Source: Spirirestis rafaelensis WJT71-NPBG6
GTDB taxonomy: Bacteria; Cyanobacteriota; Cyanobacteriia; Cyanobacteriales; Nostocaceae
DNA: 64,000 nt
Direction: 5' to 3'
Assembly: GCA_019359015.1 (NCBI GenBank)
Contig: JAHHID010000020.1
Span: 1 to 64,000 of the forward strand
Under the pieces are notes generated by a model that saw only the letters and a program-made list of their open reading frames with translations, did no database searches and had not been told where the DNA came from. This document shows positions 6,994 through 47,011 of the stretch, in pieces (the stretch's first letter is position 1; every line of letters begins with the position of its first letter). The position numbers and the translations under genes are program-made.

Positions 6994-7008
6994 AAGAATT
7001 GGGAATTG

Positions 7009-7118
7009 AGAATTGGGCAATTGTTTAATGGGCATTGGGCATTGGGCATTGGGCATTGGTAATAATTCTTTTTCTAGTCCAAGCGTCCCCATTCCCCATT
7101 CTCCAATGCCCCATGCCC
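7009..7118. repeat. Composite GGGCATT repeat with 33-bp core
   Basis: Four direct copies of a GGGCATT heptamer (about 7029-7058) are followed by a 33-bp unique core at 7058-7090, then inverted-type heptamers (CCCCATT, GCCCCAT). The core is present as an exact reverse complement at 58592-58624, also flanked by the same heptamers. The whole can fold into a hairpin and lies between the GrpE-like gene and dps. Confidence 0.8.
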
Positions 7119-31775: not shown

Positions 31776-31913
31776 CAGGAGTTAGGAGTCAGGAGTCAGG
31801 AGTCAAGATTCCCTCTTGTCTCCCCTGCCTCCCCTGCAACCCAAGCGTTTCCTCTGTCTCCCTTGTCCCCTTGTCCCACTCCCCCACTCCCCCACTCCCT
31901 CATCTCCCCAGAA
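31776..31913. repeat. Tandem heptamers GTCAGGA and CCCACTC between tldD and tldE
   Basis: GTCAGGAGTCAGGA units (31777-31805), then C-rich units with CCCACTC (31870-31900). An open frame across them upstream of tldE is a repeat artefact. Confidence 0.75.
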
Positions 31914-35420: not shown

Positions 35421-36302
35421 ATGTCACTGGATTTTTTCGCCTTGCCTTTGGCGTTTCAATTTACTTCTCCAGGACCGATTCTGGTTAAAATCGGATTTTT
35501 AACTATCCGCTGGTATGGCTTATTGATTGCCTCAGCCGTGCTAATTGGCGTTAGCCTCTCTCAGTACTTGGCAAAGCGCCGTAATGTTAATCCAGAGTTG
35601 CTCAGTGATTTGTCAATTTGGCTGGTAATTGGAGCAATTCCTGCCGCACGGATATATTACGTTTTGTTTCAGTGGGCAGAATATGCCCAGCACCCAGAAC
35701 GCATTGTTGCCATTTGGCAAGGAGGTATTGCGATTCATGGTGCAATTATTGGTGGGGTTGTGGCGGCGTTAATTTTTGCTAAACTCAAGCAAATTTCTTT
35801 CTGGCAATTGGCAGATTTAGTAGCACCTTCCCTGATTTTAGGACAAGCGATCGGGCGCTGGGGCAATTTTTTCAATTCTGAAGCTTTTGGCGGTCCTACC
35901 AATTTACCTTGGAAGCTATACATTCCGCCAGAACGTCGTCCCCCAGAATTGGCTAGTTTTGAGTATTTTCATCCCACCTTTCTCTACGAATCTCTATGGG
36001 ATTTAATGGTTTTCGCTTTACTAATAACTTTGTTTTTTAGGAGTTTGCGCTCGAAACCACGCCTAAAAATAGGTACTTTGTTTATGGTTTACTGGGTAGC
36101 TTATAGCTTAGGACGCTTTTGGATCGAAGGTCTAAGGACTGATAGCTTGATGCTAGGACCCCTAAGAATCGCACAATTGGTAAGTTTAACGGGAATTCTC
36201 TTCGGATTAGCTGGGCTAGCTTGGCTTTACTTAGCGAAACGTCCTTTGCCGGATGTAGTTTCCACACCCAATGAAGATGAGGGACTAGGGACGAGGGAAT
36301 AG
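35421..36302 (+). CDS. lgt: Prolipoprotein diacylglyceryl transferase
   Basis: A 293-residue, roughly seven-TM protein with the Lgt signature [36 protein letters not shown] (the HGxxGG motif with the essential His), and [10 protein letters not shown]. It transfers diacylglycerol from phosphatidylglycerol to the lipobox Cys of prolipoproteins, such as the solute-binding lipoprotein at 20070. The last residues (EDEGLGTRE) run into a GGGACTAGGG tandem repeat, so the native C-terminus may be shorter or was modified. The ATG start and core are normal. Confidence 0.94.
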
Positions 36303-36384
36303 GGACTAGGGATGGGGAGAGTAGACAACTACCAACTAACTCCGTGCCTCCTGACTTCTGACTCCTGACTTCTGACTCCTGACT
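36282..36384. repeat. Tandem heptamers after lgt
   Basis: GGGACTA/GGGACGA units (36282-36315) followed by GACTTCT/GACTCCT units (36352-36384). The lgt stop lies within the first array. Confidence 0.75.
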
Positions 36385-44956: not shown

Positions 44957-45195
44957 GTAAGCCGCGTCCTTGACTTTTGAAGCTACGATTTTAGCTCAAC
45001 GCTGACTAAATATACTTTTTTATAGTAGTTTTTAGTATTATCTTCTATGTAATTTTACCCGTAGTCTCCGAAGAAACTACAGGTATTCAAGGCTGAAACG
45101 ATAAATTTATCGTTAATTAGAGATAAAGAGTTAATAAATTGCTTACAGAGGAGGGGGAAAGGGTGCGGGACAAGTTTCCCCTTTACCCCTCTTTT

Positions 45196-46467
45196 TCATA
45201 GAAACTTAGCTATTCTCTCCACAGCAGTGGTTAATATAGTTGGCTCATGCACTAAAGCAAAGCGAACATACCCTTCGCCAGATTTACCAAAGCCTGCACC
45301 CGGAGAAGCCGCAACACCAGTTTGTTCGACTAACTCAGTACAAAAATCTATAGAATTTTGACTCCAATGTGGCGGCAACTTTGCCCAAATATACATTGTT
45401 GCTTGGGGGGTAGGAACTTGCCAACCAATGCCGTGTAAAGCGTTAATGAAAGCATCTCGACGTTGTTTGAAGGTAGCAACAGCAGCGTTCACCCCAGCTT
45501 GAGGACCAGTAAGAGCCGCGATCGCACCATTCAAAATTCCCCGATACTGATTAAAATCAACTGCTGCTTTTACCTGACGTAAGGCGTGAATCAACTCAGC
45601 ATTACCAATGGCGTAGCCAATACGGAAGCCACCCATATTATATGACTTGGACAAAGTGAAAAACTCAATCGAGACGCTTTTATCTGGGTCAGCTTGGAAA
45701 ATTGAAGGAGCGAGAGGGGAGGAGGGGGGGAGGGGGGGAGGGGGGGAAGATGGGGAAGCAAATTCCCTCAAGTCTCCTTGTCTCCTTGTCTCCTTGTCTC
45801 CCTGTCCTCCTTGTCCGTCCCCAGTTTCCTCAAATACCAAATCTACGTAGGGGAAATCGTGAACGAGGACGAGATTATTAGCTTGACAAAATGCTACAGC
45901 TTCTTGAAAGAAAGATAATGGCGCGATCGCACTGGTAGGATTGTGAGGATAGCTCAATACCATCATCCGCGACTGTGCCAAAACAGGGGCGGGAATCTCG
46001 CTAAATACTGGTAAAAAATTGTTTTCTTCCCGGAGTGGCATCGGGTAAATTTGACCGCTGGCTAAGTACACTCCACCTGCATGAGAAGGATAGCCCGGAT
46101 CGAGTAATAAGGCAAAATCTCCAGGATTTAGCACTGCTAGAGGTAAATGTGCCGTCCCTTCTTGAGAGCCTATGAGGGGTAGCACTTCGGTTTCCGGGTC
46201 TACTTTTATGCCGAATTTTTGCTCGTACCAGTTAGCTGCGGCTTGCCGAAACGCTTGAGTACCGTTAAACAGCAAGTAGCCGTGAGTACTTTGATCGCTT
46301 AAAGACTGAGCGATCGCTTCAATAACGTGCGCGTCAGCTGGTAAATCAGAAGACCCCAGCGACAGATCTATCAACTGTTGTCCAGCAGCCTTAGCTTTTG
46401 CTTTGGCTCTGTCCATCTCAGCAAATACATTGAATTGCAGGGGTTGTAAACGTTTCGCAAACTGCAT
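45196..46467 (-). CDS. Class I/II PLP aminotransferase with in-frame repeat insertion
   Basis: A 423-residue fold-type I aminotransferase like LL-diaminopimelate/aspartate aminotransferases: LSLGSSDLPADAHVIEA, LPLIGSQEGTAHLPLAVLNPGD, PHNPTSAI, and FFTLSKSYNMGGFRIGYAIGN (PLP Lys274). Residues 216-256 (GDGQGGQGDKETRRQGD..., then Ser/Pro-rich) are low-complexity. Their DNA (45700-45822) is GGAGACAAGG and G-rich tandem repeat, so about 40 codons of repeat were inserted between the strand ending HDFPYVDLVFEE and the PLP helix. The rest is complete. The substrate is not certain. Confidence 0.85.
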   Translation of the reverse strand: MQFAKRLQPLQFNVFAEMDRAKAKAKAAGQQLIDLSLGSSDLPADAHVIEAIAQSLSDQSTHGYLLFNGTQAFRQAAANWYEQKFGIKVDPETEVLPLIGSQEGTAHLPLAVLNPGDFALLLDPGYPSHAGGVYLASGQIYPMPLREENNFLPVFSEIPAPVLAQSRMMVLSYPHNPTSAIAPLSFFQEAVAFCQANNLVLVHDFPYVDLVFEETGDGQGGQGDKETRRQGDLREFASPSSPPPPLPPSSPLAPSIFQADPDKSVSIEFFTLSKSYNMGGFRIGYAIGNAELIHALRQVKAAVDFNQYRGILNGAIAALTGPQAGVNAAVATFKQRRDAFINALHGIGWQVPTPQATMYIWAKLPPHWSQNSIDFCTELVEQTGVAASPGAGFGKSGEGYVRFALVHEPTILTTAVERIAKFL

Positions 46468-46473
46468 TTTAGT

Positions 46474-46543
46474 TAGGGGGCAGGAGTCAGGAGCCAGGGA
46501 TCAGGAGTCAGGAGTTAGGAGTCAGGAGTCAGGAGTCAGAGAA
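46474..46543. repeat. Tandem heptamers GTCAGGA between aminotransferase and trx
   Basis: About nine GTCAGGA/GTTAGGA units directly upstream of the aminotransferase start. Related arrays occur at 31776 and 36352. Confidence 0.75.
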
Positions 46544-46550
46544 CTTTGGA

Positions 46551-46886
46551 CTAATTATTGTTTAAATGAGTATCCAGGAAGCTGAGTAATTTATCCTTAC
46601 CGATGACTCCTTCACTAGAAGCTAAGACAGTGTTTCCTTGAAATAGCCTGAGCGCGGGTACACCTTCAACCTGATATTCTTTAACAGTCTGTGGGTTAGG
46701 ATCTATTTCCATTTTGACGATTTTCAGGCGATCGCTGTATGTATTGGCAGCTGAGTTAATTACTGGTGACATCAATTGACAAGGTCCGCACCAAGAAGCC
46801 CAAAAGTAAACCAATACAGGTTGTTCGGCTTTCAAAACTTCGGTTTCAAACTCAGCATCGGTTATGGTCGTTACACCCTTACTCAT
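46551..46886 (-). CDS. trxA: Thioredoxin
   Basis: The ATG at 46886 (MSKGVTTITDAEFETEVLKA) is used; the 13 upstream codons overlap repeat-like DNA. The 111-residue protein carries the active site FWASWCGPCQLMSP (Cys33-Gly-Pro-Cys36), the cis-Pro VEGVPALRLFQ, and normal thioredoxin length. It reduces protein disulfides in the cytosol, supplied by ferredoxin- or NADPH-dependent reductase. Which cyanobacterial subtype (m, x, y or TrxB-like) cannot be settled from sequence alone. Confidence 0.93.
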   Translation of the reverse strand: MSKGVTTITDAEFETEVLKAEQPVLVYFWASWCGPCQLMSPVINSAANTYSDRLKIVKMEIDPNPQTVKEYQVEGVPALRLFQGNTVLASSEGVIGKDKLLSFLDTHLNNN

Positions 46887-47011
46887 TGCAGTCTCCATCC
46901 GGTGGCACGATTTATATTGGCACACAAAATACTCTATCCCAAAGTCGTCAATAGTCCAAAGTCAATAGTCAATAATCCAGAGTTTAAACTTAATTGACCA
47001 TTGACTCGTAC

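Follow-up and report, generated by a model that had tools for sequence, protein, structure and literature searches.

A gene for an aminotransferase in Spirirestis rafaelensis WJT71-NPBG6 raises the question of how a run of short tandem repeats came to lie, in frame, inside an enzyme. The gene is on the minus strand of the window, the whole stretch of 64,000 nucleotides that we analyzed. A sequence-only reading had placed a tandem-repeat insert at 45700-45822, predicted a Gly/Arg- and then Ser/Pro-rich loop, and attributed both to short-tandem-repeat expansion within the gene. When re-measured, the insert comprised 41 repeat-built codons in frame at about 45709-45831 on the minus strand, so the earlier coordinates were correct to about 10 bases; the Gly/Arg then Ser/Pro order was apparent in the linker sequence and in the arrays called by Tandem Repeats Finder (TRF). 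The features are as follows:

45196..46467, minus strand: gene for a PRK07366 LL-diaminopimelate aminotransferase-type PLP enzyme (ORF of 423 aa)
about 45709..45831, minus strand: variable linker and in-frame insert of 41 codons (residues 213-253), with flanks HDFPYVDLVF and PSIFQAD
45772..45815, minus strand: G-rich arm, an octamer array, (GGAGACAA)n on the coding strand, encoding a GDKETRRQ-type peptide (TRF)
45748..45771, minus strand: AT-richer core (GAGGGAATTTGCTTCCCC..) of the composite element (sequence inspection)
45714..45747, minus strand: C-rich arm, (TCCCCCCC)n on the coding strand, encoding a Ser/Pro-rich peptide (TRF)

The linker peptide between ..DLVF and PSIFQAD reads EETGDGQGGQGDKETRRQGDLREFASPSSPPPPLPPSSPLA. 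TRF resolved the G-rich arm as a period of 8 (GTCTCCTT; 5.4 copies, score 72), with pattern matches at C20:45776-45801, and the C-rich arm as another period of 8 (GAGGGGGG; 4.2 copies, score 61), while the core between them occupies the place of GAATTTCTT or GAATAATTCTT in other copies. Compared with 200 shuffles of its own sequence, the linker was more periodic than expected by chance (p = 0.005, the lowest value that this number of shuffles allows). A search of positions 45000-47000 against Rfam gave no match at the gathering score, and an intein or intron does not agree with a linker that is open over all 41 codons and has no splicing domain. Other arrays of period 7-8 in the window also overlap predicted ORFs (6996-7063, 31875-31909 and 36280-36312); 9 of the 26 window arrays lie within greedily called ORFs, part of which may be spurious.

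The host protein matched NCBIfam NF005613/PRK07366 in a profile search over residues 1-423, with 731.5 bits against a cut-off of 486. Residues N176, D204, Y207, K274 and R402, which we take to be the catalytic Asn, Asp, Tyr, Lys and Arg of fold-type-I PLP enzymes, were unchanged across 20 aligned aminotransferase orthologues; judged by this invariance, the gene with its insert looks functional. In the numbering of the same alignment, the insert starts 6 residues past Y207 and ends 21 residues ahead of K274. Matched stretches of the homologous structure 2x5d stop at residue 220 and restart at residue 224, so the insert falls at a point that solved relatives cross almost directly. Both observations agree, indirectly, with the earlier suggestion that the loop may lie near the active site. 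An AlphaFold2 model based on the 20-row alignment had a mean pLDDT of 52.5 and was too poor for placing the insert. Immediately upstream, 8.4 tandem copies of the heptamer CAGGAGT (46481-46539) abut the start codon of the aminotransferase.

The insert turned out to be one copy of a composite element, (GGAGACAA)n followed by an AT-richer core and (TCCCCC)n, that is dispersed through the genome. Overlapping matches to GGAGACAAGGAGACAAGG numbered 79 in the window's genome (G000), 150 in G002, 14 in G001 and 9 in G004, and the reversed control sequence had none in these four genomes. The 127-bp insert had at least 52 BLAST matches in G000, where copy numbers are lower bounds given by the best 40 of 141 candidates scored; the best identity to the window copy was about 83% over some 110 bp. 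From 50 regions of this genome we recovered 80 BLAST pieces across 51 loci, including the window's, and scored as full copies those whose query cover ran from at most 30 to at least 85. After removal of one duplicate from overlapping regions, 46 of the 80 pieces were kept, giving at least 46 full composite copies in the examined part of G000 with matched lengths of 75-173 bp (median, 104). Thus, the earlier description as a short-tandem-repeat expansion was right in that a repeat array sits in an enzyme gene, but the array is a copy of a dispersed element and not merely a local product. The folding of the copies as RNA was weak. Against dinucleotide shuffles, mean z scores were -0.98 for the coding copies and -1.61 for the others, with 12 of the 46 below -2 and the window copy at +0.84; stronger values from mononucleotide shuffles (means of -4.5 and -4.8) were set aside after the dinucleotide control. 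Because folding is weak against dinucleotide shuffles, we do not regard these copies as established palindromic elements.

More than half of the full copies (26 of 46) are in frame within 23 ORFs that have 200 aa or more, and the remaining 20 lie elsewhere. Nearly all of the in-frame copies (25 of 26) share the strand of their ORF (binomial p = 8e-7), the exception being a gamma-glutamyltranspeptidase. The ORFs that hold 24 of the 26 have a Pfam or NCBIfam match; the host ORFs L257 and L269 have no family match in these databases. Besides the window aminotransferase and the gamma-glutamyltranspeptidase, the hosts include TrpD, RsgA, PFOR, MutS, RecJ, PEP synthase, EgtB, an LD-carboxypeptidase, MenC, a Methyltransf_28 protein, an alpha-mannosidase, a GH65/HAD protein, a glycogen debranching enzyme, a cyclase, a DUF5682 protein (two copies), an FHA protein, RsmB, a PMT_2 protein (two copies) and an nSTAND1/WD40 protein (two copies). 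The copy lies between two Pfam domain matches in nine hosts (TrpD, PFOR, MutS, PEP synthase, EgtB, MenC, alpha-mannosidase, GH65/HAD and RsmB), with the qualification that the first match runs about 20 residues into the copy in the alpha-mannosidase and spans only part of its profile in PFOR and GH65/HAD; in hosts other than these nine, some copies are inside a domain. Three of the 20 copies found elsewhere are inside smaller ORFs, which leaves 17 non-coding copies. Eleven of the 17 lie 9-48 nt past the stop of a same-strand ORF, counting mechanically called ORFs rather than curated genes, and this position just 3' of same-strand stops makes a link to transcription also possible.

We then followed the aminotransferase linker across the Nostocales using 110 loci from two best-match lists (the best 30 loci of 59 genomes and the best 80 of 296 candidates). 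Both flanking motifs were in a single ORF at 109 of these loci, the other one (L010) being cut by a contig end. After 8 duplicate rows were dropped, the 109 loci yielded 101 distinct linkers of 5-67 aa. The sequence-only reading had proposed checking whether the insert is absent from related orthologues and whether the array varies in length between strains, and both checks came out in its favour. Compact linkers of 5-6 aa occur at L016, L029, L030 and L102, and, within the window's genus, the same composite kind spans 32, 41 and 66 codons in G001, G000 and G002, respectively. G001 is a Tolypothrix brevis assembly, the same contig stretch as L031. These three genomes group together with an SH-aLRT of 100 on a linker-free tree. 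A non-repeat insert of equal length throughout the clade was not observed among the orthologues. Another congener, G003, whose genome is 54% complete, had no full orthologue among the matches listed. The 101 rows with linkers removed (382-384 residues) aligned in 385 columns, which speaks for no other long indel, the rows having been trimmed to at most 212 + 172 residues and being of equal length by construction. One further locus, L379 (G044:C139:14700-16100), has its two halves in different frames, the break lying about 30 codons ahead of a compact linker; it belongs to a distant genome of low quality (86% complete), falls outside the 109-of-110 count and is the single exception that we encountered. 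This break is not a loss of frame caused by a repeat but a sequencing error or a pseudogene.

The linkers differ in their repeats as well as in their length. We named 15 repeat types among the 101 linkers, some of which resemble each other; the units, which vary by species, include AATCCAA (peptide NPKSKIQ), CAATTAC (QLPITNY) and GGGGACT (GDWGLGT), as well as CCCAATA, GGGGAGT, GTCAACC, GGAGCAG and others. Tested against shuffles of themselves, almost half of the linkers (49 of 101) were periodic at p <= 0.01, and the period was 7 in 42 of these; 48 of the 101 contained an exact tandem doublet (period 7-10). Of 5050 stretches of matching length taken from other parts of these ORFs, only 54 (1.1%) held such a doublet, as did 22 of 5050 shuffled linkers. 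The named families account for 49 of the 101 linkers; since the other 52 hold none of them, some of the variation among linkers may be ordinary. The first-named family switches at least 31 times on the gene tree built without linkers (101 rows), a rough figure because support for this tree is weak (starred at 16 of 98 inner branches). Linkers made of AATCCAA only (n = 16) have 17 (six linkers), 19 (two), 24 (seven) or 31 (one) codons, mostly in 21-bp steps, that is, three heptamers. In some linkers, the AATCCAA heptamer arrays contain a second repeat, GTTCGACTGAGC.. or ..GGAGGGAAACCCTCC.., nested within them. Of the linker residues, 74% are of polar or disorder type, compared to 49% in the remainder of the protein.

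Several of these other repeats are dispersed as well. The AATCCAA unit, searched as 3.5 tandem copies, matched 53 times in the L062 genome, 29 times in the L040 genome, 12 times in G007, 5 times in G010 and 3 times in G000. For GTTCGACTGAGC.. there were 12 matches in G010, 10 in the L034 genome, 1 in the L044 genome and 0 in G000 and G007, and for GGAGGGAAACCCTCCTNCA there were 14 in G005, 3 in the L059 genome, 1 in the L044 genome and 0 in G000 and G010. The GGAGGGAAACCCTCCTNCA pattern is not an exact match to the repeat nested in L044 and L059. Because of this mismatch, we read the dispersal of the nested repeat from the PFOR gene of G007, in which AATCCAA-type units hold nearly the same nested repeat as the L044 and L059 aminotransferase linkers.

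Four other hosts (TrpD, MutS, PFOR and PpsA) have the same loops refilled by different repeats. The loci were taken as best matches and may include paralogues. Linkers could be parsed at 28 of 30 TrpD loci (14-73 aa), 28 of 30 MutS loci (directly ahead of MutS_V), 17 of 24 PFOR loci and all 24 PpsA loci (24-55 aa). Exact tandem doublets were present in 8 of 28 TrpD, 13 of 28 MutS, 5 of 17 PFOR and 5 of 24 PpsA linkers, compared to 0.4-2.7% of controls from the same ORFs. The MutS loop is of the GACAAGG type in G000, G001 and G004 and carries a GGGAGTA/CCCCACT array in the congener G002. The PFOR loop is of the GACAAGG type in G000 and G002, a palindrome, GTAGAGACGTTCC..GGAACGTCTC, in the congeners G001 (L345) and G003 (L332), and a GGACGCGG octamer array in G005. 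The solved TrpD 1vqu, presumably that of Nostoc PCC 7120, reads ..SQLPITNSPF.. at the site of the TrpD loop, and QLPITNS is the peptide of a heptamer repeat. Elsewhere in these proteins, matches to PFOR L261 were broken in some relatives at residues about 643-676 and 985-1005, which may be further variable loops. Matches between the PEP synthase L260 and its orthologues in G001:C60, G004:C33 and G010:C1 were split at residues 455/458; these orthologues, with ORFs of 1230-1266 aa, contain more than 1.1 kb of additional sequence in frame, possibly reflecting an intein.

Taken together, we consider it very likely that dispersed repeats repeatedly colonize insertion-tolerant loops, the window insert being one such copy, and that they are filtered for frame and for peptide character. 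Copies would arrive by insertion, or by template switching or gene conversion from other copies, and the arrays would then lengthen and shorten through slipped-strand pairing. Units of 7 or 8 bases cycle through all three frames, so that, whichever frame is read, an array will usually be open and only its total length must divide by three. Purifying selection would keep those changes that are multiples of three and yield a hydrophilic, disordered-type peptide, and such selection may be why the copies nearly always code on the same strand. The coding copies have 2.46 and 2.42 open frames on the two strands, which are thus about equally stop-free, and the strand bias does not come from stop codons. 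By contrast, open frames on the G-rich strand are far more hydrophilic than those on the other (mean hydropathy of -1.23 versus -0.10), and peptide character may therefore explain the bias. The inserted loop itself probably does little.

Local expansion, in which a native G-rich stretch of the linker grew by polymerase slippage in this lineage, would account for congener linkers of 32, 41 and 66 aa at one site, for the 7-codon steps of most AATCCAA linkers and for the nature of the arrays, as octamers and heptamers are typical substrates of slippage. However, the whole composite recurs (at least 52 BLAST matches to the 127-bp insert and at least 46 full copies, many in other genes), and second repeats nested in AATCCAA arrays cannot derive from slippage. 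Because full-length copies are dispersed, local expansion is largely refuted as the whole story and we rate it as quite improbable, with slippage staying as a second step. A more plausible alternative, though still a doubtful one, is that the copies are true miniature mobile elements of the RPE, MITE or REPIN type, moved by a transposase in trans and oriented by insertion rather than by selection. Dispersal into unrelated genes, the alternation at one PFOR site between the GACAAGG type (G000 and G002) and another palindrome (G001 and G003), and the 11 of 17 non-coding copies lying 9-48 nt past a same-strand ORF stop are all consistent with mobility; the copies are, however, tandem octamers of variable number whose best identity to the window copy is about 83% over some 110 bp, and their folding is weak against dinucleotide shuffles.

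The linkers could also be functional disordered regions, selected for binding, condensates or regulation, with the repeats merely supplying raw material. The use of the same loops across an order and the excess of polar and disorder-type residues noted above fit this proposal, but members of one genus already differ in linker length and sequence, some orthologues have a compact linker of 5-6 aa, and we find the proposal unlikely. As to an artefact of assembly or sequencing in a repeat-rich genome, the congener G004 has its aminotransferase gene divided between contigs C160 and C165 at the array, which suggests that arrays of this kind can interrupt an assembly. Yet tandem doublets occur in 48 distinct orthologue linkers, G010 and G007 (both with doublet linkers) hold the gene on contigs of 6.5 and 8.5 Mb, and 109 of the 110 loci from the best-match lists keep a single ORF through the linker, all of which makes an artefact hardly credible. 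The colonization of tolerant loops by dispersed repeats is our preferred explanation.

Several repeat systems resemble the one described here. The STRR heptamers of heterocystous cyanobacteria, reportedly described by Mazel and colleagues in 1990, have a unit of seven bases and are mainly intergenic. Elhai and colleagues reportedly described small dispersed repeats of cyanobacteria in 2008; the GTTCGACTGAGC.. and ..GGAGGGAAACCCTCC.. repeats nested in the heptamer arrays of some linkers are similar in being short and dispersed. The orthologue linkers mostly share the period of 7 of the heptamers (42 of the 49 significantly periodic linkers); the window unit, at 8 bp, differs from the seven-base STRR unit. 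In the available text of a report on G-quadruplex heptamers of Nostoc (PMC4692102), such repeats are over-represented between genes, with 89-93% intergenic in two xanthomonads, and STRR and Nostoc heptamers are, as far as that text goes, treated as mainly intergenic and not as coding for loops. The closest known case is that of the Rickettsia palindromic elements (RPEs), which the accessible portions of two reports describe as dispersed sequences of about 100-150 bp located between genes and in frame in unrelated conserved genes, and as stem-loops with terminal inverted repeats and a reading frame of their own (PMC10969869, PMC2229807). Compared by description only, and within those portions, the cyanobacterial element is likewise dispersed, similar in size and in frame in unrelated conserved genes; it differs in its octamer arrays, its purine and pyrimidine halves, its weak folding and the sharing of host loops by different families across an order. 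By analogy, it may work like an RPE, but we classify it neither as an RPE nor as a MITE. Tandem repeats in ORFs of archaeal Borg elements, as presented in the available part of PMC9879509, also keep the frame and give disordered-type regions. Their units are divisible by three, whereas the units here are mainly of 7 and 8 bp and the array passes through all frames. According to the text available for PMC3733652, two Xanthomonas species carry different REPs at nearly the same position within the coding sequence of recB; that example concerns one gene and two species, in contrast to the five enzymes and many genera examined here.

Rickettsia provides the best-known examples of repeats inserted in frame into working genes; the present examples come from free-living cyanobacteria and are on a comparative scale. 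A literature search, conducted mostly without subscription papers, returned no report of in-frame repeat insertion into cyanobacterial housekeeping genes. Dozens of genera provide natural replicates at the same loops, making it possible to test how proteins gain disordered segments, how strongly selection acts on frame and peptide, and how genes tolerate units whose length does not divide by three. The repeat-coded loops also call for caution in annotation and in structural work on these proteins, as illustrated by the QLPITNS of TrpD 1vqu. It seems that repeats scattered in the genome go on supplying housekeeping proteins with new flexible stretches. Heterocystous cyanobacteria probably have conserved "landing loops", in at least the aminotransferase, TrpD, MutS, PFOR and PpsA, that are recolonized in frame and in one orientation, and the turnover of intergenic-type repeats would thereby be a standing source of disordered regions in ancient proteins.
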